Of a DNA stretch of 57,481 bases, positions 36,561-56,593 are shown in pieces (the stretch's first letter is position 1; the number at the start of each line of letters is the position of its first letter). A model generated the notes under the pieces. It saw only the letters and a program-made list of their open reading frames with translations. It had not been told where the DNA came from and did not search any database. Origin of the DNA: Gloeocapsopsis crepidinum LEGE 06123 (GTDB taxonomy: Bacteria; Cyanobacteriota; Cyanobacteriia; Cyanobacteriales; Chroococcidiopsidaceae); contig NZ_JADEWN010000036.1 in assembly GCF_015207655.1 (NCBI RefSeq), positions 1 to 57,481 on the forward strand. Reading direction: 5' to 3'. A program made the translations under genes and the position numbers.

Positions 36561-36872
36561 TTAGCTATCTAATTGCCCGTTGACTCTACCATTGAAACCG
36601 TAGATTTGACGACTGCCAACAACTGGTACTAAAACAACTTCTTTTTCATCTCCAGGCTCAAAACGTACTGCTGTACCAGCAGGAATATCGAGACGCATCC
36701 CTCGCGAGCGATCGCGTTCAAAGTCCAATGCTGAGTTGACTTCATAAAAATGAAAGTGCGAACCTACTTGAATAGGGCGATCTCCACTATTAGCAACCTT
36801 AATGCGTATAGTTGGACGCCCTGTATTGAGTTCTATATCACCTTGTTGTACTAATAACTCTCCTGGAATCAT
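36561..36872 (-). CDS. ureB: urease beta subunit
   Basis: The 103-residue product is a complete beta subunit: [19 protein letters not shown], the [14 protein letters not shown] motif, [20 protein letters not shown] and [19 protein letters not shown]. It forms the structural trimer with UreA and UreC. The ureA stop is 284 bp upstream, unusually far for this operon, and ureC does not follow; a terminator does. Confidence 0.96.
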
Positions 36873-37156
36873 TTTTTTGAATTGATAGTTAATTCTTTGA
36901 ATTCTACTATTGTGTCAATGTTGGCGCAAATCTCTATATATCAATAAACTCATAGTATTTTTATCAACATACGTGATTCAAAAACACACTATATCAGTTT
37001 AATATTGTGCGTTGCTATAATGATTTTGATATTGGTAATCACTAGTTTACTTTGTCGCTTCAATTAGTAAAACAAATATCATGAAATACAAAAAAAATCC
37101 TCTGTCTTCTCATCAATGACAATATTTTAAATCTTTACTATCTGACAAAATCTCAA
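36873..37156. other. unusually long AT-rich gap between ureA and ureB
   Basis: These 284 bp contain no supported gene. The DNA is AT-rich with no clear hairpin. Urease structural genes are usually a few to some tens of bases apart, so this may be a site of insertion and decay, or hold a separate promoter for ureB (inference). Confidence 0.5.
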
Positions 37157-37459
37157 TCAGTGAATCGGATTATGAACTGTAACTAGTTTCGTTCCATCAG
37201 GAAAAGTTGCTTCAACTTGAACTTCAGGTATCATCTCAGCTACGCCATCCATTACATCTGCGCGCGTCAATAAATTTGTGCCATAACTCATTAATTCTGC
37301 AACTGTACGCCCGTCTCGTGCGCCTTCTAAAATTGCCGCAGAAATGTAAGCAATAGCTTCGGGATAGTTTAATTTCAATCCTCTTTGTTTGCGTCGTTCG
37401 GCGAGTAAAGCAGCAGTAAAAACGAGTAATTTATCTTTTTCCTGTGGTGTCAGTTGCAT
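37157..37459 (-). CDS. ureA: urease gamma subunit
   Basis: The 100-residue product is a complete gamma subunit: [55 protein letters not shown], and [21 protein letters not shown]. It starts 14 bp after the ureD stop. Confidence 0.97.
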
Positions 37460-37473
37460 AGCAGTTCAGTCCT

Positions 37474-38331
37474 TTAGATTTGCCAAACACGCGATCGATA
37501 GGCTGGTTTTCCCAGAGAGGAAGATCGTAGCAGATGCCAGACCTCAGTGAACCAGTTTCGCACCTCAGTTGTAGAATTACCACGATAGCGACATAGTAAA
37601 CCTGCATTTAAGCGCGTAACGCCGATTTCGCCTTGTTCTACGGTAGAGTTGAGGGTTCTTATTTTTTCTACCACGTCAGTTGAAATAGATTGCCCAATCC
37701 AGACAAAACTACCCACAATAGAGTTTCCGGCTAAACCGTGGGGGCTATTAATAATTTGCTCGTCTCCATGTAACCATTGGCGATCTATCCATAAAGGGTG
37801 TTGTTGTTGCCAAACCTCAGTATGCGATCGCCAGTTACCTTGTAAAAACTTTTCTCCTCTAGCACTGCGACCAAAGCGGGTAATTTCCCAGCCTAACCAG
37901 GTAGCCCCAGGTGCCAATTCTACTCGTAAATCCTGTCGATAAATTGCGCCATTAAACACAATTGTTTCTTGAGGAAACCATTCTAAACAAGCATCAGTAT
38001 CGACTTGTAGCAAAATATTCTGTCTAGCTTCTAAACCATTACTACGATAAATCTTACTTGCGGCGGCAGTTGTAATGAGTGTATGGGCTTTCGGTTGCAG
38101 ATGAAAATTGAGTGATAGTTTGTCACCGCCAACAATACCTCCAGCAGTGTGTAAAATCACACTATGACAAACTGCTCCTTCTGGATAAAAAGGTCTTTGA
38201 ACTTTTAGCGGTGCTTGCATTTGCTGGTGTGTCACTGCAGTTGCACCATCTACTAACGCATAGACAATATTTAAACTACCGTGCCAAGAATTAAGCTTTT
38301 GAGAATTGTTGAGTTCTAGCAAGCGCAACAT
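37474..38331 (-). CDS. ureD: urease accessory protein UreD
   Basis: UreD (UreH) is the scaffold that, with UreF and UreG, loads nickel into apo-urease. The 285-residue product has TAVTHQQMQAPLKVQRPFYP, LHTAGGIVGGDKLSLNFHLQ, ITTAAASKIYRS and the LEWFPQETIVFNGA motif, all in family order. No ureE, ureF or ureG is in the window, so they must be elsewhere. It is divergent from the outer-membrane-like protein across 226 bp; I saw no NtcA box (GTA-N8-TAC) there. Confidence 0.94.
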   Translation of the reverse strand: MLRLLELNNSQKLNSWHGSLNIVYALVDGATAVTHQQMQAPLKVQRPFYPEGAVCHSVILHTAGGIVGGDKLSLNFHLQPKAHTLITTAAASKIYRSNGLEARQNILLQVDTDACLEWFPQETIVFNGAIYRQDLRVELAPGATWLGWEITRFGRSARGEKFLQGNWRSHTEVWQQQHPLWIDRQWLHGDEQIINSPHGLAGNSIVGSFVWIGQSISTDVVEKIRTLNSTVEQGEIGVTRLNAGLLCRYRGNSTTEVRNWFTEVWHLLRSSSLGKPAYRSRVWQI

Positions 38332-38557
38332 TTTGGATGAGATTAATTTTGTTATTGTGACACGTTATGCATAAATGTTTTGAATCTTATAGAGTAAATT
38401 TGCTTAATTATAATCATTAACATAGTAGGCTTTCTCAGTAATATTGCGGTTGGACGCCTCGTCAAATTAGCGTTAATTTGCTTGTCATAGTGAATGATCT
38501 ATAAATTTGCACTCGTGCGATCAGTAAATATGAAACACATTAATCCATTAACAGACT

Positions 38558-39804: not shown

Positions 39805-41232
39805 ATGAATTCTGATTTTGAACCACCACCTAAAACGCTGTCAATTCTTGCTTCCGTGGGAGGAGTTATCACAGCTATTATTGCGATCGCAGGGCTGAAT
39901 TCTTGGTCGAGACATCTTTATCAAACTGCTAAACTACCACAATCCGATCGCGCAGCTACGGCAAGTGTCAATACACTTGATATTGCAGTATTGGATGCCA
40001 AATCAGTTGTTTTACCAGGGAAACCAATTAACCTAAGCCAGCTAGAGAAAGCAACACCATACATTGCACCACACGTAGGCAGATTAACTGCTGATGAACT
40101 CACGATCACACGTCAAGCTTGGTCGTATTTTCAGCGTAACTGGAATCCAAAAACAGGTTTAGTCAATTCCGTTGATGGCTTTACATCAGTAACGATGTGG
40201 GATCAAGCCGCAGCGATCGCCGCTTTGGTGAGTGCAAAAGAGTTAAATATCGTCTCTGCAACAGAATTTGATACTAAGATGCGCCAGATGTTAACAACAC
40301 TAGCATCAATGCCGTTGTATCAAAAAGAATTGCCTAATAAAGTTTATAACGCAACAACGTTACTTCCGGTTAACTACGGTCAATTGGATAAACGCGAAGA
40401 AATTGGCTGGTCAGCGATTGATCTGGGGCGCATGGCAATATGGCTTAAAATTGTGGGGTCAAAGTATCCTGCATTGCGATCGCACGCTGAAAAAGTTTGG
40501 CAACACTGGCAAGTAGATCGCTTAACCAAAAATGGGCAAATGTACGGTACTGCGGTAGTTAATGGTAAAGAGCAATACAACCAAGAAGGACGCTTGGGTT
40601 ACGAAAATTATGCGGCTTTTGGTTTAAAACTGTGGGGCTTAGATGTTGAACGTGCTTTAGATCATCAATCGCAAACTGCGTTTGTGAATCTTTACGGACA
40701 AGGAGTTCCCTACGATCGCCGCGATTATGCATCTTCAGGGGCAAATAACTATGTCCTCAGCGAGCCTTTTATTTTAGATGGCATTGAGACAGGATTTCAA
40801 GCGCTACCCAAAGCTTATGCAGATCGCATCTTAGCCGCACAAGAAGCCCGCTACCGCGCGACAAAACAGTTAACTGCTGTAACCGAAGATAATCTCGATC
40901 GCCCGCCATACTTTGTTTACAGTGGCTTATTTGTCAACGGACAACCTTGGGCAACAATTACCGACACGCGACAACAATACAACAATTTGCGGTTTTTGAG
41001 TGCTAAGGCAGCGATTGGTTGGCATATGTTGTATAACACTCCATATACGCGCCAATTATACGATTTTGTGCAAGCAAATCTGAAATCCGATCGTGGCTGG
41101 TACAACGGCTTTTATGAATCACTGCATCAGCCTAATCGCGCACTCACAGCAAATAATAACGGCGTGATTCTAGAAAGTTTACTCTACAAGCAAGTTGGTA
41201 AGCCACTAGTTGTTTGGGCAAATGTTAAGTAA
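39805..41232 (+). CDS. DUF3131 protein, membrane-anchored
   Basis: The 475-residue product has one N-terminal membrane helix (about 12-30, LSILASVGGVITAIIAIAGL) and one DUF3131 domain (about 95-470). Conserved blocks seen in all copies here include TMWDQAAAIAALV, LPNKVYNA, GWSAIDLGRMAIW, QEGRLGYENYAAFGLKLWG, NYVLSEPFILDGIE, LTAVTEDNLDRPPYFVY, WATITDTR, NLRFLSAKAAIGW, and NNNGVILESLLYK. The repeating helical blocks suggest an alpha/alpha-barrel of the glycosidase-like kind (inference). Function is unknown. It faces the periplasm and probably handles a polysaccharide. Confidence 0.85.
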   Translation: MNSDFEPPPKTLSILASVGGVITAIIAIAGLNSWSRHLYQTAKLPQSDRAATASVNTLDIAVLDAKSVVLPGKPINLSQLEKATPYIAPHVGRLTADELTITRQAWSYFQRNWNPKTGLVNSVDGFTSVTMWDQAAAIAALVSAKELNIVSATEFDTKMRQMLTTLASMPLYQKELPNKVYNATTLLPVNYGQLDKREEIGWSAIDLGRMAIWLKIVGSKYPALRSHAEKVWQHWQVDRLTKNGQMYGTAVVNGKEQYNQEGRLGYENYAAFGLKLWGLDVERALDHQSQTAFVNLYGQGVPYDRRDYASSGANNYVLSEPFILDGIETGFQALPKAYADRILAAQEARYRATKQLTAVTEDNLDRPPYFVYSGLFVNGQPWATITDTRQQYNNLRFLSAKAAIGWHMLYNTPYTRQLYDFVQANLKSDRGWYNGFYESLHQPNRALTANNNGVILESLLYKQVGKPLVVWANVK

Positions 41233-41244
41233 GTTGACTTACTT

Positions 41245-41320
41245 AAATGTGGAATAGCCGTCTCGGCTGTCCATCTTTTGCTGTCGGGCATAAGCAGGCA
41301 AGATGCCTACCTCACATTAA
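41245..41320. repeat. short element with imperfect terminal inverted repeats
   Basis: The gap between the two DUF3131 genes holds AATGTGG at the left and CTCACATT at the right as near-inverted ends, enclosing TGTGGAATAGCCGTCTCGGCTG and GGCATAAGCAGGCAAGATGCC. A related copy of the left half is at 56689-56712. It looks like a small dispersed repeat (MITE-like); a transposase is not present. Confidence 0.45.
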
Positions 41321-41356
41321 CTATTAATTTAATTTTTGAAAACCCAACTTTTAATT

Positions 41357-44122
41357 ATGATCTGGAAGCGCCATCAACGCAAGTGGTTGCGATTAATCGC
41401 ATTTTTTCTCATTGGAATCGTCGCCCAGTTTTCGTTTTATATTCCAACACAATCTTTAGCACAAAGTCCGAACAATGCTGATAGTTGTAGCAGTATTACA
41501 GCACCTTTAACAAAGGAAGAGCAAACTTATGCGCGTAGTGCTTGGCAGTATTTTGTCAAAAACTATCAACCCGCAACCGGATTTACAAATTCAACTGGTG
41601 GTTATCCCTCTGGTACGCTTTGGGATATGGGCAATTATCTTACAGCGTTGAATACAGCGCGATCGCTTAATTTAATTGACCAAGCTGATTTCGATTCCCG
41701 TCTCAATAAGTTTTTAGCAACACTCAGCGAATTAAGACTGTTTGAAGATGGCTTACCAAGTAAAGTTTACAATACAGCTAACGGACAAATGGTGGATTAT
41801 GGCAATAATCCGGTAGAGCGAGGTATTGGTTGGTCAGCATTAGATATTGGGCGGATACTTGCAGCTTTTCATATTATCCGCACCTGTCATCCGCAGTATA
41901 ATGATTGGCTCACAGGAATTGTCTCAAAATGGCAACTAGGGCGATCGCTTCAAGATGGACAGATGTTTGGTGCTACTGTGCTTCCTGATGGTGAAACATT
42001 ATTAGTTCAAGAAGGACGCTTGGGTTATGAGGAATATGCTGCTAGAGGTTATGAACTCTGGGGTTTTTCTGTACCTAAAGCCGTTTCCTTTGAACCATTT
42101 AAGTTTGTAGAAATCAATGGCGTACAAATTCCTGTTGATACTCGCGATTATCAAACGACGAACGCCAATAATTATGTTGTCAGTGAGTCTTACATCTTGG
42201 ATGGTATTGAATTTGGTTTACAAGGTGACTTAGCAGATTATGCAGCAAGAGTTTTAGAAGTGCAAAAGCGACGCTACGAAGCTACTGGACAACTCACCGC
42301 AGTTACCGAAGACAATATCGATCGAGAGCCTTATTTTCTTTACAATACGGTTTATGCTAATGGCAACGCTTGGGCAACAATTACAGACACCAATCAGCCT
42401 TATCCACAGTTACGCAGTTTGAGTACAAAAGCAGCTTTTGGCTGGCGCTACCTTTATCCAGAAAATGACTATACGCAAAAACTGTTTGAGGCAGTCAAAG
42501 ATCTCCGCAGTCCTGATGAAGGTTTCTACGCTGGAATTTACGAAGAAACTAAGCAAACAAACAATGCTTTAACAGGAAATACAAATGGCTTAATTTTAGA
42601 GATTCTCCATTACAAAGCTAGAGGGAATCGCCCCTTAATCACAACATCGGTGAGTGCTTCGACAGGAAAACCAAGCAATGATGTAGAAACAGCTAATTCA
42701 ACTCCTCTACCTGCGACGACAACGCCTGCACAAACACCTAGCGTTGAATCGACAACACCTGAAGTTACAGAAATTGTAGTTGAACCAATTCCACCAGTGA
42801 GTCAACCATTTTCTGCTCATCCTAATAAGCTAAATAGACCTCTGACAGTTAGCGAACGTCGTTACGCGCAAGCCGCATGGCGGTACTTTCAAGCAAATTA
42901 TCATCGCAGTGGGCTAGTTGACGATCGCAGTGATTTTAAAGGTGCAACACTTTGGGGTTTAGGCGATTATCTCGCTGCACTTCAAGCGGCGCGATCGCTT
43001 GATATCATCTCAGCAAAAGAGTTTGACTTGCGCACGCGACATCTTTTAGGAGCCTTGACAAAATTACCATTATTTGCTGGAGAGTTGCCCAATCGTGGTT
43101 ATGATACGCGATCGCTGCAATCGGTTGATTATGGTGGAAATTCAGTTCCCGAAGGCACGGGTTGGTCAGCGTTAGATATCGGCAGAATTCTAGCGTCACT
43201 TTACAATTTAAAAACTTCTTATCCGCAATACACTCAAGCTGTAGAGCAAATCGTACTTGATTGGTCGTATTTGCGTGTCGTGCAGGATGGGATGCTCTCT
43301 AGTGCTACAGTTACAAAAGATGCTGGACGATCGCTCACAAGGGTAAACCCTGAAACTCGCTTAGGTTACGAAGAATATGCCGCCCGTGCTTTTCAGTTGT
43401 GGGGATTTGATGTGGCAAATTCAGCAGTTGGTGGTAAGTATCAAACTGCTACGGTAGAAGGAGTTGCAGTGCCGATTCAGCGCCTTCGTCGCGAGACAAA
43501 CACCAAGGTGAATCAATATACAGTCAGCAATCCGTTTTTACTGTACGGACTCGAATTTGGTTTTGATCCGCAAATGCGATCGCTAGTACAACCTATATTA
43601 ACCGCGCAAGCACAACGCTACCGTCGTACAGGCAAGCACACCGCCTCAGCCACAACTTTAATTGATCGCAAACCTTACACTGTCCACAGTTCTATTATCG
43701 GTCAAGGAGAGCCTTGGGTAGCTTTAGCCGATGACGGTCAAGCTGTAGTAGATGGACGTTTGGTAAGTACCGCAGTAGCCTTTGCTTATCACGCCTTGCT
43801 ACCAGAAGATCGCTACGCGCAAGAGTTAGTTAATGCAACCACTGACTTATACAATCCTTTACTCGGCTTTTACGAGGGCTTTTACGAAAAAACTGGTAAA
43901 ACTGCCATTGGCTTTACCAGCAGTACCAACAGCATGATTCTCCAATCTTTGCTGTATATGGCAACAAAGCAACCACTAATTCAACCAAACAACACAACGA
44001 ATTCAAGATGGTGGGAGGAGATTAAAGCGGGTAATTCTGGTCGTGGTTTACCAACAACGGCAACACAAAAAGTCCAGCTAGTGACTGACTCTTCTGGCAC
44101 TTACTGGGTGTCTGCGAAGTAA
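41357..44122 (+). CDS. secreted protein with two tandem DUF3131 domains
   Basis: About 921 residues. An N-terminal signal or anchor (basic KRHQRKW then LRLIAFFLIGIVAQFSF) precedes domain one (about 45-430) and domain two (about 490-880), joined by a Thr/Pro-rich linker (ATTTPAQTPSVESTTPEV). Domain one has the full set of motifs, including EGRLGYEEYAARGYELWG, LTAVTEDNIDREPYFLY and AWATITDT. Domain two keeps GWSALDIGRILASL and RLGYEEYAARAFQLWG but has TASATTLIDRKPYTVH where the others have T/N-E-D, so it may be inactive or have a different role. The ATG at 41357 is preferred to a TTG at 41336. Confidence 0.85.
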   Translation: MIWKRHQRKWLRLIAFFLIGIVAQFSFYIPTQSLAQSPNNADSCSSITAPLTKEEQTYARSAWQYFVKNYQPATGFTNSTGGYPSGTLWDMGNYLTALNTARSLNLIDQADFDSRLNKFLATLSELRLFEDGLPSKVYNTANGQMVDYGNNPVERGIGWSALDIGRILAAFHIIRTCHPQYNDWLTGIVSKWQLGRSLQDGQMFGATVLPDGETLLVQEGRLGYEEYAARGYELWGFSVPKAVSFEPFKFVEINGVQIPVDTRDYQTTNANNYVVSESYILDGIEFGLQGDLADYAARVLEVQKRRYEATGQLTAVTEDNIDREPYFLYNTVYANGNAWATITDTNQPYPQLRSLSTKAAFGWRYLYPENDYTQKLFEAVKDLRSPDEGFYAGIYEETKQTNNALTGNTNGLILEILHYKARGNRPLITTSVSASTGKPSNDVETANSTPLPATTTPAQTPSVESTTPEVTEIVVEPIPPVSQPFSAHPNKLNRPLTVSERRYAQAAWRYFQANYHRSGLVDDRSDFKGATLWGLGDYLAALQAARSLDIISAKEFDLRTRHLLGALTKLPLFAGELPNRGYDTRSLQSVDYGGNSVPEGTGWSALDIGRILASLYNLKTSYPQYTQAVEQIVLDWSYLRVVQDGMLSSATVTKDAGRSLTRVNPETRLGYEEYAARAFQLWGFDVANSAVGGKYQTATVEGVAVPIQRLRRETNTKVNQYTVSNPFLLYGLEFGFDPQMRSLVQPILTAQAQRYRRTGKHTASATTLIDRKPYTVHSSIIGQGEPWVALADDGQAVVDGRLVSTAVAFAYHALLPEDRYAQELVNATTDLYNPLLGFYEGFYEKTGKTAIGFTSSTNSMILQSLLYMATKQPLIQPNNTTNSRWWEEIKAGNSGRGLPTTATQKVQLVTDSSGTYWVSAK

Positions 44123-44180
44123 AGGGGTCAAAGCAAGAATCTCAAATGCCCTGCAACTCCCTTCGGGGCTACGCAGAGTA

Positions 44181-44226
44181 AGTCCACGCAGGTGAACTTT
44201 GTTTATTTAGCTGCGAATTCATTCGC
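44181..44226. repeat. direct repeat, left flank of the dynamin cassette
   Basis: AGTCCACGCAGGTGAACTTT followed by GTTTATTTAGCTGCGAATTC and ATTCGC. The right copy at 49161-49206 has the same order with 6 mismatches over 46 bases (about 87% identity). The two lie just outside the three-gene cassette. A related but diverged unit is at 182. Confidence 0.75.
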
Positions 44227-44376
44227 ACTCGCATTCTTCCATCCACAGGAAATAACAATTCAAATACCGAAAGTGCGGACGACATCATCAAACATTATTT
44301 CAGTATTCACACTGGTGGTAGTTGCAAGTATTTCAGGCTTTATTAGAGTTGACCAAAAAATATATTCTAGAGAAAA

Positions 44377-46839
44377 ATGTCGCTCAGTATAGAGTCTAAG
44401 TTAAACACCACTCGTAATCTTTTAAAACAATTAGGTAACTCAGTCTCTAGCTTAGTCAATTTATCTCCTGAGATTTTTGGCGATCCAAGTATTGAATCTT
44501 GCCTAAAAGAATTTGTCAACGTTTATCAAGAAGCAGTCCAAAGACTTGAACATCCTAGTTTTCGGATCGCCACTATTGGGACAACTTCTTCTGGAAAATC
44601 TACTATTGTTAATGCACTGATTGGTCGAAGAATTGCACCTATTGAAGCCGGAGAAATGAGTGGAGGTGTGTTAACTCTTAAGCATTCTTCAGAACATCGA
44701 TTAGCGATCGCACCAACAGAAGATGCAGTTTGGGATACAGGTGAATGGACAAAATTAAATGATGAGGATTTATACCACCGAATTCGCACGGTGATGCACT
44801 CCTATCACGATGCACGTAAAAAACGGGAGTATGTAGCGCCACAAGTAACGGCTTATATTCCTCTATTACCTGCTTGCGATCCTTCCTTGCTAGGTTTACC
44901 TGAAGGAATAGGAGTGGAATTAATCGATCTACCAGGCTTGAAGTCAGTTCAAGATCGAACTAACTTAGCAACGATTCAAAAGCAAGTTAATAAAGCTTTT
45001 AGTCTAGTATCTTTAGACTATATGCAAGTAGATGACGATCATAGAAAACGCTTGCTGGAAGAATTAAAAAAAGTTGTCGAATACCTACAAGGACGTACAG
45101 ATTCGATGATTTTTATCTTAAATCGAGTCGATCAGCGAGGTGTTGATGATTTACCCATATCTTTGCGTATTAATAAGTTAAAAGCAGAAATTAAAGAAGT
45201 ACTATTACTTCAAGAACTTCCTGATATTCTTCCTTTTAATGCTCGTTTTCTATATTATGCCCAGTGTGCCTGGGGTGTAGAAGCTTTGCACAAACCATCT
45301 ACAGTTAATCAACAAACTCGCTTAAACTTTCTTAAAGCAATGTTTCAAGATTGTGCAGGAGTAATTCGTTTAAATACTAGAGAAAACCGATATTTAAAAA
45401 ACTGGTTTCGTGATATCGAAGATCGAGTAGAAGACAATGAATTTATTGATGACGAAACTATGAGTAAAATTCTCTACTATTCTTTAGAATGGAGTGGTGG
45501 GAGAGAACTGTGGCAACGCTTCCGCCTGCGGGTTCAAGAGTCTTTTACAGAATTAGTGATACTCCCAGCATTGGTAGAAGTTTTTGATCACTACTCTGTT
45601 TTATCAGAACGGCTTGACATCTTGGTTCAAACACGAAAACTTAATAATCAAGAACAAGTCGAACAAGAAAGAGAGAAAATCGCTAATATTCGGCAAAACT
45701 TACATAAAAGTATCAATAAAATAGGTAGAGAATTTAAAGCTGAAATTGAACATTTAATAGCAGGACTCAAAACTGATAAGCCTGAAGATAGACTTAAAAT
45801 TAAACAAGATGCTGAAAAAAAAGGCAGAAAAGGATTTTCTCTAATCTTTGATGCTATTAGTGAAGTAGAAGGTGACTTAACTAAAGTTTTAATAGTTCCT
45901 GCACGTGATGCTTTAAAAAATAACTTGGGTACATTTGAATTACAAGACAAGTTACGAGAAGTAGTATCGCCTTTTTTAGCTGAAGATATTGCTAGAACAT
46001 ACGATAACGCTAGCCGAAGATTAAGCCAATTTTCCTGTGAATCAGAATATCTTATCAAGCGCGTACGTAGTGATGATGACAGTAAAAAAGAACTTGAACA
46101 TGACGAACGTTATGTACGTCTTTTGTATCACACTATGAAAAAAGGCATAACAGCAAGAGCAGAATTCATTCTTCAAGGAAAAGCAAAACTATTTGAGCAA
46201 GCTTTAGAATCATTAGTTGACGAACAAATCAAGAGATTAAAGATTTGTTTATCTGAAGAAAACCTCAAATCTTCAGTTGAACTACAAAAAGCAGCATTTG
46301 TTAAGCTGCACAAACAATTAGCTCAAAATTTACCAACGTTACCAAATAACTTTTTTGAAATCTCAGACACAATCAAGCAAGGAAATTCTCGAAAAACAGA
46401 AATTGTCGATACAAAAACAGAACACGAACAATATACAGAATTTTACGAAGAAGGTTCGTGTTTTAAAAGTACAAAAACAAGAGTTCAAACCAGACCTGTA
46501 AATCACAACATTACCGCAGAAGTTGAATATGTAGAACTTTTTCTTCCGTCCCCAGATTTAATGGCAAAACAATGGTTGGGTGGAATTGAGAAAGGCAAAG
46601 AAAGATTATGGGATGTTTTACTTGAGTGGATTTTCAAACGCTTAGATGATGTTAGCAATATTTTTGAAGAATCAGTTAATGACATTACTGGTTTAGCCGA
46701 ACGTGCTTTGCAACAGCAGTTAAATGTCATTGAGGATGGTTTTGAACAAGAGAAACAACTTTGGCAACGTTTTGAATTTCAAAAAGTTGAAATCACAACA
46801 ATTTATCAAAATTTAAAGAAAGAACTGAATCAAAATTGA
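44377..46839 (+). CDS. dynamin-family GTPase
   Basis: The 820-residue protein begins with a short helical segment and then a dynamin-type G domain: G1 loop GTTSSGKST (residues 68-76), G2-like GEMSGGVLT, G3 DLPG (184-187) and G4 NRVD (249-252). Long helical regions follow (coiled-coil-rich, about 400-680: KLNNQEQVEQEREKIANIRQ, EFKAEIEHLIAGL), and a helical tail with a WLGGIEKGKERLW amphipathic patch that could touch membrane. Bacterial dynamin-like proteins remodel membranes in envelope stress and phage defence (established for DynA and Leo/Eleos-type systems). This one has no close named relative that I recognise. It is the first gene of a three-gene unit. Confidence 0.85.
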   Translation: MSLSIESKLNTTRNLLKQLGNSVSSLVNLSPEIFGDPSIESCLKEFVNVYQEAVQRLEHPSFRIATIGTTSSGKSTIVNALIGRRIAPIEAGEMSGGVLTLKHSSEHRLAIAPTEDAVWDTGEWTKLNDEDLYHRIRTVMHSYHDARKKREYVAPQVTAYIPLLPACDPSLLGLPEGIGVELIDLPGLKSVQDRTNLATIQKQVNKAFSLVSLDYMQVDDDHRKRLLEELKKVVEYLQGRTDSMIFILNRVDQRGVDDLPISLRINKLKAEIKEVLLLQELPDILPFNARFLYYAQCAWGVEALHKPSTVNQQTRLNFLKAMFQDCAGVIRLNTRENRYLKNWFRDIEDRVEDNEFIDDETMSKILYYSLEWSGGRELWQRFRLRVQESFTELVILPALVEVFDHYSVLSERLDILVQTRKLNNQEQVEQEREKIANIRQNLHKSINKIGREFKAEIEHLIAGLKTDKPEDRLKIKQDAEKKGRKGFSLIFDAISEVEGDLTKVLIVPARDALKNNLGTFELQDKLREVVSPFLAEDIARTYDNASRRLSQFSCESEYLIKRVRSDDDSKKELEHDERYVRLLYHTMKKGITARAEFILQGKAKLFEQALESLVDEQIKRLKICLSEENLKSSVELQKAAFVKLHKQLAQNLPTLPNNFFEISDTIKQGNSRKTEIVDTKTEHEQYTEFYEEGSCFKSTKTRVQTRPVNHNITAEVEYVELFLPSPDLMAKQWLGGIEKGKERLWDVLLEWIFKRLDDVSNIFEESVNDITGLAERALQQQLNVIEDGFEQEKQLWQRFEFQKVEITTIYQNLKKELNQN

Positions 46840-46904
46840 ACTGTATTGTGATTTACAATATACTGCTTACAAATCTTTTTTTATATAGCAGTTTTTAATT
46901 TACT

Positions 46905-47762
46905 ATGTTTATCCAAAATCTAATTCAAGTAACTAACCAACTACGTAGGGCACAATTAAATAATTGTATTCAAGAATATATATTATGCGGAATTGAAATT
47001 TGGTGCAAGCAACTTTTTATAGATCAGAACGTAGCTGATTATATTGTAAAAAACTATAAGGAATGGGGTGAGATACAAGACATAACAGCTTTCTCTTGGA
47101 GTGAATGGCAACCCAAAAAAAGAGAAGTCAAAAATATATTTGGACAGATAACAGAAGAAATGCCAATAACAAGTAGACTCAATTATTTAATTACAAGAGT
47201 TTTAAAACGAATAAACATAAATAGTGGAAATATGGTATTCATCGCTCTTATTACTTTTGCAGTTACAGCAGTTGGATATCTACTTTATAAAAGTAACCAA
47301 CCAGAGCAAAAAAACAATTTTACAGAAACAACAAAAAACGATAATAATAATTATTCAAATCCTCCAATTCAAAAAATAGATCAACATTTTTTAGTTTTAG
47401 CAGTTGATGCTAAAAAAGCAAGCTTGATTCAATCACTAAAGAATAAAGAATATATATCTCTAAGAGATGGAGAAGAAATTTATGATGCAACTCAATATTT
47501 ATGGTTGGGTTCTGAAAGTACCTTTAATCAAAAAAAATCTAATATGAAAAAATACCGAGTACTGTCAGGTGAAGAGTCAGAATATGATATCTACTTACTT
47601 TATCTTAAATTAAGTCAAAGTGATGAAGGTTTTGAGCCAAATCTAAATCAGCTAGCTAGATATGATGCTTTTCGTAAATTGGCTGATTTAACGATTGATT
47701 TTGAGATATCACCTAGATTACAAATGGAAGCTTGCACAAACTTTGAATTATATAGTCGCTAA
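46905..47762 (+). CDS. unknown single-span membrane protein in the dynamin cassette
   Basis: The 285-residue product has an N-terminal helical part (MFIQNLIQVTNQLRRAQLNN), one clear membrane helix (about 109-127, MVFIALITFAVTAVGYLLY) and, after an Asn/Lys-rich linker, a soluble C-terminal domain (about 160-285: QHFLVLAVDAKKASLIQSLK, YDIYLLYLKLSQSDEG). I do not recognise the family. It lies 65 bp after the GTPase and 15 bp before the next gene, in the same direction, so it is likely cotranscribed. Its DNA is more AT-rich than its neighbours and holds no complete HIP1 site. Confidence 0.7.
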   Translation: MFIQNLIQVTNQLRRAQLNNCIQEYILCGIEIWCKQLFIDQNVADYIVKNYKEWGEIQDITAFSWSEWQPKKREVKNIFGQITEEMPITSRLNYLITRVLKRININSGNMVFIALITFAVTAVGYLLYKSNQPEQKNNFTETTKNDNNNYSNPPIQKIDQHFLVLAVDAKKASLIQSLKNKEYISLRDGEEIYDATQYLWLGSESTFNQKKSNMKKYRVLSGEESEYDIYLLYLKLSQSDEGFEPNLNQLARYDAFRKLADLTIDFEISPRLQMEACTNFELYSR

Positions 47763-47777
47763 ACAGTAAAAATTAAA

Positions 47778-49034
47778 ATGCTGGTTGATACTACTCTTTT
47801 ATTTAAAGATAGAGAAATTATTAAAGGTTTAGCTGATGGCTCAATGCAACGCTATGGTAGCGTTATTCGATGCGCTGCTGGTAGACCAAATGGCGGTCAA
47901 ATTATACGTCACTTAGTGGAAGCCCCTGGACTTACAAATAAATTAGTGGGTATTCCTTTTTCACCTATTTTAGGTAGTATTGATGTTATTGATCATGGCT
48001 TTACTTACCACAAACTACTTGGAGTCGAGCAACAATTATTTGGTATTGAAAGAACTTTAGCATCTGTAATGGGTTTAACTCAAATTGCTGCGGGTGCAAG
48101 TGTATTGAATCTTGGTGTTAGTATTGCTGGCTTTGCATATATGGGATACAAGTTACACCAGATCCAAAACTCTTTAAGCAATCTTCAACAGTTTGTACAG
48201 GAAGGTTTTAATCGCGTTGAGGATCGCTTAGATGCTATTTCTGGACAACTAGCATATTTATACTTATTAGTAGAAAATAGTCGAGAACAACAACAAAAAC
48301 TTGCGAAGGCTATTTCTTATATACACCAAGCAATGCTCATTAAAGAGATTGCTGCTTTAAATGCTGAACTTGACGATCGCAAACGTTTTCCAAATGAATC
48401 GCCTAGAGAAGCGCTAAAAGTTGCCTCCAGAGTACGCTTGTTTTTGGCTAACCAGGCTTTGCAAGCAAATCCAGAATTAAATGCTGAATTAATGCTTAAT
48501 GCTGATGTTTCTATTCAAGGTTGGGCAGTCGCTACAGCAACCGAAGCAAATCTGCTTTTAGAAATAGGTCAACATCAAGCAGCTAAAGAATTACTTACCG
48601 AAGAAGTCCCTAAATTTAAACAAGTAGCAGAAAAATGGGGCGGTGAATTAATTAGCGATCGCAATTCTTACTTGTCTACAGCTTATCGCTTTACTAATGC
48701 TCGGTTTGAAAACCACATTACTCCAGAACGAATAGAACGTATTGTTCAAATCTCTCCAAGCGATCGCACGTTATCTCCTGAGCAAATTCGGTGTCAGAAG
48801 ACTAATATTGACGTAGAGTTTTCCATGTCTCATAGCGCACAACTCGATCAATCATGGACGCATCGTCAGATTGCTGTTGCTGAATACCTAGATACTTTGA
48901 GCGAACTGTCAGCAAGATTAGATAGTTTACAATCTTTTGCAGCATTATGCGATCAAAATGCAAAGAGTAGTAGAGATCTGCTACCCGATGCTGAGGCTGA
49001 ACCTGGTTTGTATCTTTTATCACCAGTTGAGTAG
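47778..49034 (+). CDS. unknown protein with hydrophobic segment and coiled coil in the dynamin cassette
   Basis: The 418-residue product has an N-terminal globular part. A long hydrophobic segment follows at about residues 94-123 (LASVMGLTQIAAGASVLNLG, VSIAGFAYMGYKL), then a heptad-like coiled coil (about 124-180: HQIQNSLSNLQQFVQEGFNR, VEDRLDAISGQLAYLYLLVE). A helical C-terminal region (ANLLLEIGQHQAAKELL, TPR-like in feel) completes it. The order hydrophobic hairpin, coiled coil, helical body suggests a membrane-inserting partner or effector (inference). I do not recognise the family. It starts 15 bp after the previous stop. Confidence 0.7.
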   Translation: MLVDTTLLFKDREIIKGLADGSMQRYGSVIRCAAGRPNGGQIIRHLVEAPGLTNKLVGIPFSPILGSIDVIDHGFTYHKLLGVEQQLFGIERTLASVMGLTQIAAGASVLNLGVSIAGFAYMGYKLHQIQNSLSNLQQFVQEGFNRVEDRLDAISGQLAYLYLLVENSREQQQKLAKAISYIHQAMLIKEIAALNAELDDRKRFPNESPREALKVASRVRLFLANQALQANPELNAELMLNADVSIQGWAVATATEANLLLEIGQHQAAKELLTEEVPKFKQVAEKWGGELISDRNSYLSTAYRFTNARFENHITPERIERIVQISPSDRTLSPEQIRCQKTNIDVEFSMSHSAQLDQSWTHRQIAVAEYLDTLSELSARLDSLQSFAALCDQNAKSSRDLLPDAEAEPGLYLLSPVE

Positions 49035-49160
49035 AAATATTCTCTTTTGGTTGCTATAGGAATCTACAACGTCTTGTTGAACTTTGAATATTAGAAAATT
49101 TACAGAGGATATGGGTTTTGAAGCACAAATCTGTTACTAGAATGCGCGAAAATTGGTATA

Positions 49161-49206
49161 AGTCCACGCAGGTGGACTTTATTTACGTAGCAGCAAATTC
49201 ATTCGC
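49161..49206. repeat. direct repeat, right flank of the dynamin cassette
   Basis: AGTCCACGCAGGTGGACTTT followed by ATTTACGTAGCAGCAAATTC and ATTCGC. It matches the left copy (44181-44226) over 46 bases with 6 mismatches. The first 18 bases form an AGTCCAC/GTGGACT palindrome. It ends 8 bp beyond the stop of the converging GH26 gene. Confidence 0.75.
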
Positions 49207-49214: not shown

Positions 49215-50303
49215 CTATTGCCCAGTAAATTGGGCATCTGTTAGTAAACGCGGATTACTGTGATTCGATGGGATAAATTGACTGTCTGCAACTGATGAAC
49301 TGTAGGCAGAGTTGGTGATATAAGTTTGAGAACCATACATAAATGTGCCATCACCTCGACTTCCACCGAATACTGCCCAGTCAGTTTCTTTGTCTTCATT
49401 AAACCAAAGCAGCATCTTGATGTTTTGTGCTGTGGCATAGTTGAAAACGTCAGTAATCCACTGTTCTTTTGCTGTGACGCTGTTACCAGCACTTGTTGAT
49501 GTACTAGTAGCAAACTCGGTAATTGTCAGCGGTCGATTTGAAATAGCGCGTAAACGATTAATCATCGGTCCGAAAACTTGCTGTGGTGTTTGCCAATTTG
49601 ACCATGATTGACTTGTACCCCAGTTGTAGCCATCGATCGCTATCCAATCAACATAAGCATCACCAGGGTAATATGACTCGGCGCTATAACCACCAACATC
49701 ATCGTTATTGACTGTCCAAACCCACTGTACATGGTTCACACCCAGTCCTTTGCTATCTAAAATTCCCTTGACGCGCTTCCACATATTCACGTAGTCGCTG
49801 GGTGAATTATTTCCCATTGCTGCACCCCAAGGATACCAAGAACCATTCATTTCATGACCCAAGCGGATATAAACGCGGCGATCGTCACTGGTATTGTAAA
49901 CGCCATCAGGACCACTGAGGAAGGTTCTCAATCGGGTAGCCCAGTTGTTGATGTAGTTATCGTATTTACCTTGTGCTATTTGGACTTCAATATTGTTGGG
50001 AGTTGATGAAGCTGAACACAGATAAGGTTCCCAAGTAATCATTGGTACATTTTGATTGTTCCAAATGTAGGGAAGTTGGTAGTTAAACAAGTTATCTTGA
50101 GTTGAGGTTTGGTTACACCAATTTGTGAAGAGGTTAGTTATCGCATTTTTCTTGACTTGCCAGGTTTCTAATGCCTGGACATTACTCATTTCCCAACCTT
50201 GATTACCGTAGTAAGCACCGAGAAGCGTATCAGCAGATGCAGGTTGAGTAAAAGGAAGTGCACAAGCAAACAAACTGCTAATAATCTTGCACAAGCGTTT
50301 CAT
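49215..50303 (-). CDS. secreted GH26 family glycoside hydrolase (beta-mannanase type)
   Basis: The 362-residue product has a signal peptide (LCKIISSLFACALPFTQPASA) and the GH26 TIM-barrel motifs. The catalytic acid is in RLGHEMNGSWYPWG (Glu151 with the preceding His) and the nucleophile is in TITEFATSTS (Glu263). NHVQWVWTVNND and DWIAIDGYNWG are also in place. GH26 enzymes cut beta-1,4-mannan or beta-1,3/1,4-glucan; the exact substrate is not clear. It is exported. It lies 26 bp downstream of the HAF-repeat gene on the minus strand and converges on the dynamin cassette. Confidence 0.88.
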   Translation of the reverse strand: MKRLCKIISSLFACALPFTQPASADTLLGAYYGNQGWEMSNVQALETWQVKKNAITNLFTNWCNQTSTQDNLFNYQLPYIWNNQNVPMITWEPYLCSASSTPNNIEVQIAQGKYDNYINNWATRLRTFLSGPDGVYNTSDDRRVYIRLGHEMNGSWYPWGAAMGNNSPSDYVNMWKRVKGILDSKGLGVNHVQWVWTVNNDDVGGYSAESYYPGDAYVDWIAIDGYNWGTSQSWSNWQTPQQVFGPMINRLRAISNRPLTITEFATSTSTSAGNSVTAKEQWITDVFNYATAQNIKMLLWFNEDKETDWAVFGGSRGDGTFMYGSQTYITNSAYSSSVADSQFIPSNHSNPRLLTDAQFTGQ

Positions 50304-51951: not shown

Positions 51952-53100
51952 GTGATGTTGCGACTAATGAATTTGAGAGTAAGGAATATGAATGACCCTG
52001 CTGGCGATCGCTTCAGACGCTGCACCACGCGCGATTCCATCTTTAGTCAGTGGCAATGGCAACTAGTACTTATACTGATGCTAGGAAGTTTGTTTGGTGT
52101 TAAACATTTACCCTCTTTTGCCAAGACTTACCAAAACCAAACCTCTGATCAAGCAACACAAAAAAATTCCCATACCCCAGTATTATTAGGGCTTTACACT
52201 CCAAACTATCTAGGTTCGCAACGTACTATCGATCGAGAGTTGCGTCAGTTGGACGATTGGGCAGGTAAGCGTCATTCGCTGGCTGGGTTTTTTATGGATA
52301 TTGAAGACTCGAATCCTGCATACAATATCACGAACCGCTTAGAACTGTTGCGTAGCAATGGTTACACTGCTTTTATTAATTTAGATTCGACGCGCTCAGC
52401 AGCACAAATTGCTAGAGGAGATGTCGATCGCTCACTCCGAAAACTAGCCCAAGCTTACGCTGTCTGGGCAAAGCAAGGATCGGAACGGATGGCATTTATT
52501 GCGCCATTCCAAGAGATGAATATTCCTGGAGAGACTTACAGTAAAGATCCTCAAAACTTTAAGCTGGCGTACCAACGTATCCAAGAAATCTTTGCAGAAG
52601 CTGGCGTTTCTCCTAACACAGTGCGATGGGTGTTTGCGCCGAATGGTTGGAGCGAGAATGCACAACACCGATTTGAAAATTACTATCCAGGTTCAGATCG
52701 AGTCGATGTTGTTGCGTTTAGTGCTTACAACTGGGGACATTGTAGCAACGCAAGTTGGAAACAGTGGAATGAACCACAGGAAGTCTTTGAGTCTTATATT
52801 CAGCGGATGCGAGTGATGGCTCCTGGTAAGCCAATTTTTATCGCGCAAACTGGTACTACAAGTCATACGCAAAGTGGTGCCAAAAGTAGTGCAAAAGATC
52901 AATGGTTGCGCAACTCTTACACACAGCTAGTTGCAATGGGAGTGCGAGGTATTCTTTATTTCAATATTGATAAAGAATGTGATTGGGCATTTTACAACGA
53001 TCGCAATCATAATTCGGCTGGCTATCGCGATGCTATTGCCAATTATGCATTTGGTTACGTAGCACCTGCAGATTTAGCACGCATGGAGCTTGCGCGGTAA
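51952..53100 (+). CDS. GH26-like protein with altered catalytic residues
   Basis: The product is up to 382 residues, with an N-terminal membrane helix or signal (about 35-55, QLVLILMLGSLFGVKHLPSF) followed by a GH26-like barrel. VLLGLYTPNYLGSQ, AFIAPFQEMNIPGETY (acid Glu188), NTVRWVFAPNGWS and DVVAFSAYNWGHC match, but the position of the GH26 nucleophile (xxxE in the first family member) reads PIFIAQTGTTSH, so Gln299 replaces Glu. The His before the acid Glu is also Gln. It could be catalytically dead or act in binding. The start is uncertain; an ATG at 51988 is an alternative to the GTG at 51952. The stop overlaps the next ATG (TAATG). Confidence 0.8.
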   Translation: MMLRLMNLRVRNMNDPAGDRFRRCTTRDSIFSQWQWQLVLILMLGSLFGVKHLPSFAKTYQNQTSDQATQKNSHTPVLLGLYTPNYLGSQRTIDRELRQLDDWAGKRHSLAGFFMDIEDSNPAYNITNRLELLRSNGYTAFINLDSTRSAAQIARGDVDRSLRKLAQAYAVWAKQGSERMAFIAPFQEMNIPGETYSKDPQNFKLAYQRIQEIFAEAGVSPNTVRWVFAPNGWSENAQHRFENYYPGSDRVDVVAFSAYNWGHCSNASWKQWNEPQEVFESYIQRMRVMAPGKPIFIAQTGTTSHTQSGAKSSAKDQWLRNSYTQLVAMGVRGILYFNIDKECDWAFYNDRNHNSAGYRDAIANYAFGYVAPADLARMELAR

Positions 53101-54593
53101 TGGTTGGGAGATGGGTAGCAATAACTGGAGTAAGCGTTATTTTATCGTCGCTCACAACACAGCATTTAGTTTGTTCTCGCACCAGTACAGAATGCTTGCA
53201 TAGCATTTCTCATTCTTTGCGATCGCGCTTTTCTCAGCACCAGGGGCGATCGCCATCATTTTTGCTTGCTGCTCCTGATAATTTTAATCCTGATTTGCAA
53301 CCACAACCTTCCGCACCAGCACCAACAGAAACTCCTGTTGAGAAGCCACAAATTCCTAGCGTTCCTCCACCAGCGCCTAGTCCTAAGCCAACGGTTTCAG
53401 TACCTGTACCAAAACCAACTCCTACAACCAATACTCCACCTCGATTAACACAGGAAGCAGATCGTATTGCTGCTCAACGTGCTTGGAAGTATTTTGAGCG
53501 CAACTGGAATACAAAAACAGGTTTAGTGAATGCTGTAGACAACTTACCGTGGACAACATTATGGGATCAAGGTAGTGCAATACTCGGAATTCATGCAGCA
53601 CGACAGTTGGGGTTATTGCCTGCAGGTGTCTTTCAAAAGCGGATCGATACTTTGTTACAAACATTAGAAACATTACCGCTACCAGCAACAGGCTTACCTA
53701 ATAAAGCCTATAGTACGCACACTGCTCAGATGCGGCAACTTGATAATACTCCCGATCCTCAGGGTAAGAGTGGTTGGTCAGCACTAGATATGGCGCGTTT
53801 TTTGGTAGGGCTACACGTTTTACGCGAACACTATCCCGAATATAGCGATCGCATTCATCGCATTACCACACGCTGGAAGTTAGCGAATCTTGTCAAAAAT
53901 GGTTGGTTGAATGGTGGTATTTCAAGTGCTAACGGAAAAATTCTCCAAGTCCAAGAAGGACGCTTAGGTTATGAGCAATACGCCGCACACAGCTTGAAAC
54001 TTTGGAATCTTGAAGCAGATAAGGCGCTATCTCAACCACCTGTTAAAACAGTCTCAGTCGATGGAATTGTGTTGGAAGTCGATCAACGTAACTTCAAAAA
54101 CTCTGGGGCTACTAACTATCTCACCAACGATCCTTATCTGCTGTGGGGCTTGGAATTGGGATGGTCAGATGCTGTCAAACCACAAGTTAACAAACTTTTG
54201 CAACTGCAAGCTCAACGCTTTCAACGTACTGGTAATTTAACTGCGGTGAATGAAGATTCACTCGATCGCCCACCTTATTTTCTCTATTACAGTGTTTATG
54301 CGGACGATCAACCTTGGCACGTTACGGATACTAGAGGACGTGCTTATCCCCAATTACGGTTTCTTAGCACTAAAGCAGCGTTCGCTTGGTTTGCACTAGT
54401 GCCGAATGATCCTTATGCCAAGAAGTTACGTAACTTTGTCCAAAACCTTGCCGATCAAAATCGCGGTTATCTTTCAGGGCGATACGAACAACGCCAACTT
54501 GGTGTAAATCGCTCAATTGATATTAATACCAATGCAATTGTTTTAGAAAGTTTGCTTTACCAAGCTAGAGGTCAACGTCCACTTGTGTTGTAA
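53100..54593 (+). CDS. secreted DUF3131 protein
   Basis: The 497-residue product has an N-terminal export segment (about 7-22), a HIP1-bearing stretch, the motif AAPDNFNPDL (residues 57-66), a Pro-rich linker (about 67-112) and one DUF3131 domain (about 115-495). The conserved blocks are all present: TLWDQGSAILGIH, LPNKAYS, GWSALDMARFLVGL, QEGRLGYEQYAAHSLKLW, NYLTNDPYLLWGLE, LTAVNEDSLDRPPYFLY, TDTRGRAYPQLRFLSTKAAF and NTNAIVLESLLYQARG. The ATG overlaps the stop of the GH26-like gene, so the two are translationally coupled. The GT2 follows 17 bp later. Confidence 0.85.
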   Translation: MVGRWVAITGVSVILSSLTTQHLVCSRTSTECLHSISHSLRSRFSQHQGRSPSFLLAAPDNFNPDLQPQPSAPAPTETPVEKPQIPSVPPPAPSPKPTVSVPVPKPTPTTNTPPRLTQEADRIAAQRAWKYFERNWNTKTGLVNAVDNLPWTTLWDQGSAILGIHAARQLGLLPAGVFQKRIDTLLQTLETLPLPATGLPNKAYSTHTAQMRQLDNTPDPQGKSGWSALDMARFLVGLHVLREHYPEYSDRIHRITTRWKLANLVKNGWLNGGISSANGKILQVQEGRLGYEQYAAHSLKLWNLEADKALSQPPVKTVSVDGIVLEVDQRNFKNSGATNYLTNDPYLLWGLELGWSDAVKPQVNKLLQLQAQRFQRTGNLTAVNEDSLDRPPYFLYYSVYADDQPWHVTDTRGRAYPQLRFLSTKAAFAWFALVPNDPYAKKLRNFVQNLADQNRGYLSGRYEQRQLGVNRSIDINTNAIVLESLLYQARGQRPLVL

Positions 54594-54610: not shown

Positions 54611-56593
54611 ATGAATTCAGTGACTCAGACAAAAAATCTATCAAATGCCGGTGGTAATACTCGTTCTCGCCTCAGAGAGGGCACTTTACTTTTTCGCTAC
54701 CTCGCAGAAATCAATCTGATTTTTGGTGCTTGGTACTTATCTTGGCGAATAACGCATTCAATTAACTTTGATGCACTGTGGCTTGCGATTCCTTTACTGT
54801 TAGCAGAGATTTACAGCTATTTCGGTGGCGTGATGTTTGTTGTGGGGTTATGGCGTCCAATTGTGCGACAAGTTAAATCGTTGGACAAGTTGACACCACC
54901 AATGTCGCGTGCCGATTTGCCTACAGTTGATGTTTTTATCACATGTTACAACGAACCACCCGAAATGGTTGAACAAACAGCCAAGGCTGCCTTGGCGATT
55001 GACTATCCACCAACGAAGTTGCGGGTTTATGTGCTAGATGATGGAAACTCACCAGCTATACGCGCTATGTCGGAGAAATTGAGTATCGCAGATTTACAGA
55101 AACCTTTACTTCAGCAGGAAGCGGCGCAAATTGATGCTGAACGTTCTTCGTTGGTAAAACGCCTTCAAGAACTGGAAGAATTAGCACCGGATACACAAGA
55201 GGCTGAGGAATGGCTACAAGCGATCTCTCCTACGCAAGATACTCGCCTTGAAACTAAATTTTTGCAGCGTTTGCAGCAATTAATTCTGTTGTTGCATCCA
55301 ACACACCCTAGTATCAGCGATCGCCTTTCAACTGAACGTCAATTTTTAGAAGACGCAATTTATCAAAAAGAAATTGAACTTGTCGAACTCAACCGATTGC
55401 GCTACATTGCGCGCCCCAAACCTCCTGGTATTCCGCATCATGCCAAAGCTGGAAATATTAATTATGCACTGTTTTATGGAGATACTGCGGGTGATTTTAT
55501 TTTGACACTCGATGCAGATCATATCCCTAAACCACAATTTCTCAAGCGCGTTCTACCATATTTCTTTACCTACAATGTTTTCATAGGAAAATACGAACGT
55601 AATCGAGTTGCGTTTGTGCAAACTCCTCAAGATTTCTATAACTTACCTGCTGACGATCCGTTTGGACATCAAGCACATTTATTTTATGGACCACTCCAGC
55701 AAGGTAAAGATGGCATGAATGCTGCTTTCTACACTGGAACAAATGCAGTGATTCGACGCGATGCATTGATTGGTGTCGGACTTCAGTATTTTTCGGATGA
55801 ATTTGCCAAAAATGAAAAACGACTTGATGAGTTTGAGTTAGTTGGTGGTGTTTCAAGTAACAGCATTACTGAAGATATGAATACCGCAATGCGGTTACAC
55901 GCTGCTGGCTGGAAATCGGTCTATCATAACGAACTTTTGGCAGAAGGTTTAGCACCTGACGATCTCAGTTCTACACTCAAGCAAAGACTACGTTGGGCGC
56001 AAGGCACTATTCAAGTTTTCATCCGCGAAAATCCTTTAACAAAACCAGGATTGACTTTTTGGCAACGACTGCATTATTTCAAGACGATGTATAGCTATTT
56101 CTCTGGGTTTGCCACAGTTGTTTTTATTGCGTGTCCTATTATCTATTTCTTTACTGGTGTTATTCCTGTAAAAACTTATGGTCCTGATTTTGCCTTGCAC
56201 TTTTTTCCGGCGTTTATTCTGAACCGCCTCACTCTCATGGCAGCTACGTGGGGTATTCCTGCAAGAGAAATTTGGCGTTCTGAACAATATGCGATCGCTT
56301 TATTTCCTTTATTAATTCAAGCTGTATGGAGTGTATTTACAGGACAACCAATCAAATTCCAAGTGACACCCAAACAAAGACAATCAGGAGTTTATCTACG
56401 TTTAATTATGCCACAAATAGTTATTTTTACACTTACTATTCTTGGTATTCTTTGGAGTCTTTATCGCTTTGCTACTGGCACTCTTAATTATCCTTTAGTT
56501 CATTTACTCAATAGTGCATGGGCAGTTTATAACTTATCGCTACTTTGGATCGTTATCCGCGCAGCTACCTGGCAACCACGTTTAAGCAAATAA
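54611..56593 (+). CDS. cellulose-synthase-like glycosyltransferase 2 (BcsA-like) with coiled-coil insertion
   Basis: The 660-residue product is a processive membrane GT2. Two N-terminal membrane helices (about 30-80) are followed by the GT-A domain with VDVFITCYNEPPEM, DDG (143-145), DADHIPKP (DxD at 301-303), TED (420-422) and QRLRW (458-462), then several C-terminal membrane helices (about 480-650). The domain is unusual: about 105 residues (155-262) rich in Glu, Gln and Leu (LVKRLQELEELAPDTQEAEE, ERQFLEDAIYQKEIELVELN) are inserted between DDG and HAKAGN and look like a coiled coil. No PilZ domain is present at the C-terminus, so direct c-di-GMP control is not indicated. Product: probably a beta-glucan or beta-mannan exopolysaccharide. 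Confidence 0.9.
   Translation: MNSVTQTKNLSNAGGNTRSRLREGTLLFRYLAEINLIFGAWYLSWRITHSINFDALWLAIPLLLAEIYSYFGGVMFVVGLWRPIVRQVKSLDKLTPPMSRADLPTVDVFITCYNEPPEMVEQTAKAALAIDYPPTKLRVYVLDDGNSPAIRAMSEKLSIADLQKPLLQQEAAQIDAERSSLVKRLQELEELAPDTQEAEEWLQAISPTQDTRLETKFLQRLQQLILLLHPTHPSISDRLSTERQFLEDAIYQKEIELVELNRLRYIARPKPPGIPHHAKAGNINYALFYGDTAGDFILTLDADHIPKPQFLKRVLPYFFTYNVFIGKYERNRVAFVQTPQDFYNLPADDPFGHQAHLFYGPLQQGKDGMNAAFYTGTNAVIRRDALIGVGLQYFSDEFAKNEKRLDEFELVGGVSSNSITEDMNTAMRLHAAGWKSVYHNELLAEGLAPDDLSSTLKQRLRWAQGTIQVFIRENPLTKPGLTFWQRLHYFKTMYSYFSGFATVVFIACPIIYFFTGVIPVKTYGPDFALHFFPAFILNRLTLMAATWGIPAREIWRSEQYAIALFPLLIQAVWSVFTGQPIKFQVTPKQRQSGVYLRLIMPQIVIFTLTILGILWSLYRFATGTLNYPLVHLLNSAWAVYNLSLLWIVIRAATWQPRLSK

Follow-up and report, generated by a model that had tools for sequence, protein, structure and literature searches.

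What does a dynamin-like GTPase do, together with two companion proteins, in the middle of a polysaccharide locus? The question is raised by a 57,481-nucleotide stretch of the cyanobacterium Gloeocapsopsis crepidinum LEGE 06123 (contig NZ_JADEWN010000036.1, positions 1 to 57,481; hereafter the window), in which three intact open reading frames (ORFs) run head to tail with gaps of 65 and 15 bp, as a preliminary description of this DNA had recorded (Table 1). Gene 1 encodes the GTPase, gene 2 a middle protein with a membrane segment and gene 3 a candidate effector. The trio probably forms a membrane-attacking immune system not described before, because gene 3 is JukB-like and a lipase has been added to it in some relatives. 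The earlier wording, a membrane-acting system that is perhaps a defence module, fits these genes best.

Gene 3 matches the PADLOC model of JukB (PDLC04114) at E = 2.8e-11, with the best stretch at residues 11–129. The match is at the level of a domain, covering positions 15–123 of the 323 in the model and leaving the C-terminal domain of gene 3 uncovered. Other copies give comparable values (1.1e-13 on a Nostoc plasmid, 1.6e-9 in Deltaproteobacteria). When a 26-member gene 3 profile, which includes seven JukB-only relatives, was compared with the PDB, JukB (9JHT) was the sole sequence below 0.1 (E = 6.1e-5), and for an 8-member profile it was the sole sequence below 1, at 0.68. The region carries the consensus GxxxRYGGVIRxAAGTxxxGQIVRHL, a signature shared with a Stenotrophomonas JukB (L063) that sits after a JukA. 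The profile searches proposed in the preliminary description thus recovered a JukB-type domain in gene 3, which had been thought to belong to no recognised family, and Dynamin_N in gene 1, and left gene 2 without a clear match. The long hydrophobic segment described for gene 3 exists as a glycine-rich stretch and is a candidate pore segment, but its hydrophobicity is only moderate.

In four relatives (L082, L130, L132 and L133; 4 of the 17 genomes of the family-level search below), a Lipase_3 domain is fused to the N terminus of gene 3, giving proteins of 585–689 residues with Pfam E values of 1.2e-31, 4e-29, 3.6e-28 and 1e-25; Pfam finds no such domain in the gene 3 of the window. All four carry GHSLGG, an NDP aspartate and then a histidine, presumably the catalytic serine, aspartate and histidine. 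The helical C-terminal domain is common to pore-type and lipase-type members. The hydrophobic segment is kept in L130, L132 and L133, where the family gene 3 profile also covers the JukB region, and is gone in L082, so the effector either gains a lipase or exchanges its membrane segment for one. This fusion points to a modular membrane-attack effector with the dynamin in JukA's place, in which a JukB-type domain, a lipase or both occupy a fixed spot after the dynamin. In the dynamin tree, the lipase variants form two pairs that are not sisters, L082 with L133 (support 0.996) and L130 with L132 (1.0), with a support of 0.201 at the node joining the latter pair to L047, and the tree of the gene 3 C-terminal domain is compatible with a single change of lipase state. 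There may have been one or more gains or losses.

The three genes travel together. A gene 3 alignment was scanned against a collection that the tool describes as holding 84,980 species genomes, yielding 30 loci, of which 20 span nearly all of gene 3 (L044 and L054 are broken within it), one is partial (L055) and nine match mainly in the JukB-like region. The middle gene lies upstream in 19 of the 20 near-full loci, the exception being L043, and a dynamin lies upstream in all 17 whose contig reaches that far (L038, L049 and L054 start at a contig end). Conversely, a dynamin profile (E ≤ 1e-60) found 13 of 291 cyanobacterial genomes, including that of the window; every one of the 13 has gene 3, whole or as a fragment, near the dynamin, and 11 have the middle gene, one of which (G229) was read from a Nostoc plasmid record at the same coordinates, taken as the same replicon. 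No middle gene was detected in L084, where dynamin and gene 3 are both broken, or in L085, where a long dynamin accompanies a 70-residue fragment of gene 3. Searching with the gene 3 C terminus returned 17 of 386 cyanobacterial genomes, 15 with the dynamin or pieces of it alongside and two (G058 and G215) with only gene 3 fragments in the fetched stretch. Within one family, the same search returned 17 of 217 genomes, 13 having all three genes (the dynamin split in L079), two being cut by contig ends and two holding a gene 3 fragment only. The genome sets of these searches overlap and their counts are not additive. Over 24 chosen loci, the protein distance matrices of the three genes are correlated at 0.83, 0.89 and 0.69, values that none of 2000 permutations reached and to which shared species history can add. 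Co-occurrence in other genomes had been named as a check on the trio, with partners scattered away from the GTPase as the outcome that would count against it; the linkage counts contradict such scattering.

Gene 1 has a single Dynamin_N domain (PF00350, 4.6e-14) followed by a long part without a family match, in agreement with its earlier assignment as a dynamin-like protein. Its P-loop is invariant among 11 aligned sequences, as are two further motifs or their key residues, which we take to be G3 and a G4-like motif (Table 1). Another member (L085:5178-7910, genome G282) is a divergent dynamin with its own long glycine-rich hydrophobic insert, and upstream in L016 there is one more ORF, similar to the C-terminal portion of gene 1.

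Gene 2 consists of a helical N-terminal part, one strongly hydrophobic segment and a conserved alpha/beta C-terminal domain, in a structural model with a mean predicted local distance difference test (pLDDT) score of 88. The single membrane span expected from the preliminary description is therefore present. Its view that gene 2 belongs to no recognised family also stands: Pfam gives no family above its curated cut-off, PADLOC and NCBIfam give none, and nothing in the PDB matches clearly (PHROGs was not searched). In some loci, the span is replaced by a glycine-rich stretch (L018:6928-7626, L035:6294-6986 and L044:2613-3251), so the anchor itself varies.

The distribution is patchy and includes mobile DNA. 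A copy of the trio sits on a conjugative Nostoc plasmid (MOBF, MPF_T) next to DUF499, DUF1156 and SNF2 genes, the L132 copy shares its contig with a relaxase (Pfam 6.3e-22) and a ParA-like match that is weak, just below the Pfam cut-off, and a Deltaproteobacteria metagenome-assembled genome (MAG) contains the complete trio. The surroundings of the chromosomal copies vary and, judged by eye, look ordinary. PADLOC models run on 113 flanking ORFs from 19 loci matched 145 families; of the 25 families listed, 23 were each hit by a single ORF and many are related PtuA models, and the matches are scattered. The HmaB, HmaC and DUF1156_MTase matches among them appear to belong to the Nostoc plasmid.

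These observations lead us to favour, with somewhat more confidence than doubt, a dynamin-gated membrane-attack immune operon. Gene 1 would act as sensor and assembly engine, its GTPase polymerising where membrane is perturbed or strongly curved, for instance where a phage enters or on a vesicle that a phage induces. Gene 2 would be the adaptor, anchored in the membrane and coupling gene 1 to gene 3 through its conserved C-terminal domain, and gene 3 the effector, the JukB-type N-terminal domain inserting into and opening the membrane and the class-3 lipase form degrading it. The GTPase motifs, the linkage and correlated divergence of the genes, the JukB homology, the lipase variants, the patchy occurrence, the plasmid copy and the decayed copies are observed. 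The phage trigger, sensing by gene 1, pores made by gene 3 and the linking role of gene 2 are parts of this scheme that we infer, as is the anti-phage function as a whole. The target could be either the host membrane, in an abortive response, or a phage vesicle, as in Juk. Animal dynamin-superfamily GTPases coat and break the pathogen vacuole. More tentatively, and with the balance of our judgement against it, the trio may represent a new class of innate immunity in which a dynamin senses or builds the membrane curvature that a phage causes and delivers a modular killer (JukB pore, lipase or both) through an anchored adaptor, a bacterial counterpart of that animal immunity. Bacterial dynamins and the JukB pore effector, each known separately, are here joined in one conserved operon. 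If the proposal is right, dynamins of this kind would gain a concrete job with a readout (membrane opening, lipid hydrolysis), and Juk-type immunity would extend to systems without JukA, in cyanobacteria; it also becomes testable whether dynamins sense phage-made membrane structures.

Among known systems, Leo/Eleos dynamin operons carry a suspected defence role, and the trio shares with them a bacterial dynamin in a small operon. It is not Leo/Eleos: the window has one dynamin rather than two or more, genes 2 and 3 encode a membrane protein that is no dynamin and a JukB/lipase effector, and the match of gene 1 stops at the GTPase start (LeoA 2.3e-7, 28.3 bits, best stretch residues 15–94 of 820; LeoBC 20.2 bits, residues 14–83). 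In Juk, according to a review (PMC13282480), the pores that JukB makes in the phage vesicle are tetramers, and JukA also works with other effectors, phospholipases included. The pore and lipase forms of gene 3 parallel that effector range, whereas the operon has a dynamin and a membrane-anchored protein where JukA would be, and the match of its gene 3 to JukB lies in the N-terminal domain. At the effector end the trio works in the manner of Juk, at the opposite end in that of a dynamin. Bacillus subtilis DynA, a dynamin-like protein that affects phage infection at the membrane, delays lysis and supports membrane integrity according to the abstract of PMC8844932, which names no effector partner. 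It offers a precedent for an anti-phage dynamin with a different reported effect (delayed lysis), and gene 1 matches the NCBIfam DynA model weakly, at 34.4 bits against a cut-off of 1600. SynDLP and BDLP likewise belong to the dynamin superfamily in cyanobacteria, but the gene 1 profile matches their PDB entries weakly and at the GTPase start alone (2J68 E = 0.031, SynDLP 9EM9 E = 0.42). Section 7 of a 2018 survey (PMC5827413) describes cyanobacterial dynamin clades marked by KGK, HSR1, DnaK or tandem-dynamin neighbours, or unclassified, and that section does not mention the partners found here. Among titles and abstract openings in the literature searched, including entries on LeoABC (PMC4159319), Eleos (PMC11811056) and SynDLP or BDLP (PMC10104851), none describes the trio; the primary Juk paper may mention dynamin partners.

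Several results weigh against an immune role of the kind we favour. PADLOC JukB matches are weak in the lipase variants L130 (1.4e-4) and L132 (9.1e-4), and L082 and L133 have none at 0.01. A PDB search with the P. luteola JukB itself returns nothing at 0.01, and therefore the PDB match of gene 3 rests on profiles. In the gene 3 model, pLDDT falls below 50 at residues 47–164, the putative pore region, and a 19-residue scan leaves the window segment below the cut-off of 1.6 (the Nostoc copy reaches 1.63), making it moderately hydrophobic at most. The dynamin has no match among 50,697 phage records and the gene 3 C terminus none in viral_contigs, the resemblance to LeoA and LeoBC is faint and confined to the GTPase start, and the flanking PADLOC scan, which had no control set, does not show enrichment in defence islands. 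That last result and the ordinary look of most flanking genes suit a housekeeping or stress operon in which the dynamin, together with its partners, mends, tethers or remodels plasma or thylakoid membranes, gene 3 being a membrane-inserting scaffold and the lipase variant a remodelling enzyme. Cyanobacterial dynamins are widespread and some lie in conserved gene clusters (PMC5827413, section 7), and B. subtilis DynA takes part in membrane surveillance (PMC8844932, abstract). Sparse occurrence (13 of 291 and 17 of 386 genomes, and no intact copy in 18 related ones), carriage on a plasmid, and JukB homology and lipase fusion that are unusual for housekeeping make this alternative unlikely, although it is the one we take most seriously.

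The JukB domain could also mean that gene 3 is an ordinary JukB recruited by a JukA-like protein encoded elsewhere, with the dynamin as helper. Of the JukA models, PDLC04111 and PDLC04112 were run on the genomes and PDLC04113 was not. Ten of the 13 cassette genomes, including that of the window, have a match to PDLC04111 (E = 4e-8 to 8e-6), but it is weak, single in each genome and never beside the cassette; PDLC04112 matches none of the 13, the operon-bearing G050, G182 and G421 lack PDLC04111 too, and both models match one of 14 control genomes, that of E. coli. The trio is thus not Juk as defined, and recruitment in trans is improbable. A maintenance or toxin–antitoxin-like unit, with gene 3 as a membrane toxin restrained by genes 1 and 2 and stabilising plasmids or islands, would fit the copies on a plasmid and on the relaxase-bearing contig, as well as the TacA (L014) and GNAT (L013) ORFs just 3′ of decayed copies. 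An 820-residue GTPase would be an unusual antidote, and gene 3 C-terminal fragments persist alone in L013, L022-L024, L131 and L143; lacking the N-terminal domain, these may be harmless. We regard this explanation as slightly more improbable still.

The preliminary description had further proposed that the cassette is bounded by two direct repeats of about 46 bp. Two copies do flank the three genes in the same orientation (48 nucleotides, 88% identical), as a composite mobile element delimited by them would require, but they are not its limits. The 24-nucleotide repeat core has 62 copies in the genome at up to three mismatches (a reversed control has none), the three other pairs less than 5 kb apart are every one inverted, and one same-strand neighbour pair within 5.1 kb compares with 1.67 expected for 62 random positions, so the pairing is at chance level. 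The sister genome G001, of the same genus, keeps both repeats while the dynamin, the middle gene and the gene 3 N terminus are gone; the surrounding genes align at 90–93% DNA identity and the gene 3 remnant at 94%. Finding the locus without the cassette in a close relative had been another suggested check; here the dynamin and middle gene are lacking and both repeats persist. In G002, also of this genus, a decayed copy of all three genes adjoins a stretch homologous to window 34412-38503, on which side the urease-accessory gene UreD lies, and no left repeat is reported in the short stretch between them. From these two comparisons, the cassette is therefore an old resident of its site within the genus that has broken down in both further species searched, with the repeats as mere bystanders. 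The repeats being dispersed copies with no cassette tied to them, the boundary claim falls, and we rejected the repeat-delimited element as highly improbable. Transfer itself, the other half of the earlier proposal, is supported by the plasmid and the MAG of another phylum, and the JukB domain fits its suggestion of defence. Among 18 other genomes of the same genus or family, none has an intact cassette, the partial ones being G001, G002 and a 28-residue fragment in G018.

Table 1 Features of the three-gene cassette and its surroundings in the window.
Feature	Position	Strand	Basis or remark
Gene 1, dynamin-like GTPase, 820 aa	44377..46839	+	ORF, Pfam PF00350, family alignments
P-loop GTTSSGKST, aa 68-76	44578..44604	+	Invariant columns in 11-sequence alignment
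Presumed G3 motif DLPG, aa 184-187	44926..44937	+	Invariant in 11-sequence alignment
Presumed G4-like motif NRVD, aa 249-252	45121..45132	+	N249 and D252 invariant in alignment
Gene 2, middle protein, 285 aa	46905..47762	+	ORF, alignment, model m564d20b888a2
Gene 2 membrane segment, aa 110-128	47232..47288	+	Hydropathy 2.18 over 19 residues
Gene 3, candidate effector, 418 aa	47778..49034	+	JukB-type N-terminal domain and helical C-terminal domain
Gene 3 JukB signature, aa 11-53	47808..47936	+	Alignments to Stenotrophomonas L063 JukB and 9JHT (HMMER)
Gene 3 glycine-rich hydrophobic segment, aa 99-126, candidate pore segment	48072..48155	+	Highly conserved in alignments
Gene 3 helical C-terminal domain, aa 165-414	48270..49019	+	Alignment; 10-residue pLDDT means mostly 70-97
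Dispersed repeat copy, left	44179-44226	+	No cassette boundary
Dispersed repeat copy, right	49159-49206	+	No cassette boundary

The flanks of the cassette are polysaccharide-like, as the preliminary description had stated, with DUF3131 proteins at 39805-44122 and 53100-54593, a GH26-like hydrolase at 49215-50303 and a cellulose-synthase-like glycosyltransferase at 54611-56593. There are three DUF3131 proteins in these two intervals, one of them with two DUF3131 domains. The GC content of the cassette is 35% (29% in the middle gene) versus 41% for the window, a low value that counts in favour of the immune reading. Just 3′ of the decayed cassettes lie a TacA-type antitoxin ORF in G002 (L014:7450-8252; Pfam 1.9e-25, tested in L014) and a GNAT acetyltransferase ORF in G001 (L013:9573-10091; tested in L013); both are absent from the window at about 49073/49074.

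Related genes also occur in other arrangements. Crenothrix sp. D3 (L111:3673-9469) has a member of the same dynamin family (4.8e-183), then a weak middle-gene match (4e-6) and then a different dynamin, without gene 3, possibly a two-dynamin cousin of the operon. On the Candidatus Chlorohelix plasmid NZ_CP128401.1 (L033:2841-16718), a JukB-domain protein (PADLOC 7.6e-23) with no JukA annotated beside it lies within a locus of helicase, helicase-related and N-6 methylase genes, which we take to be DISARM-like. In Herpetosiphon (L061:522-8104 and L062:3036-8104), JukB-like proteins follow large ORFs of about 1040–1080 residues that are alike at their N-terminal starts, one of them with HEAT repeats (L061:3895-7026), and these pairs are possibly a further JukB-effector arrangement. 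Finally, a phage record from human faeces (MT835507.1, L114:3288-4936) contains a JukB-like ORF near one end of the contig, with another ORF directly upstream in the JukA position.

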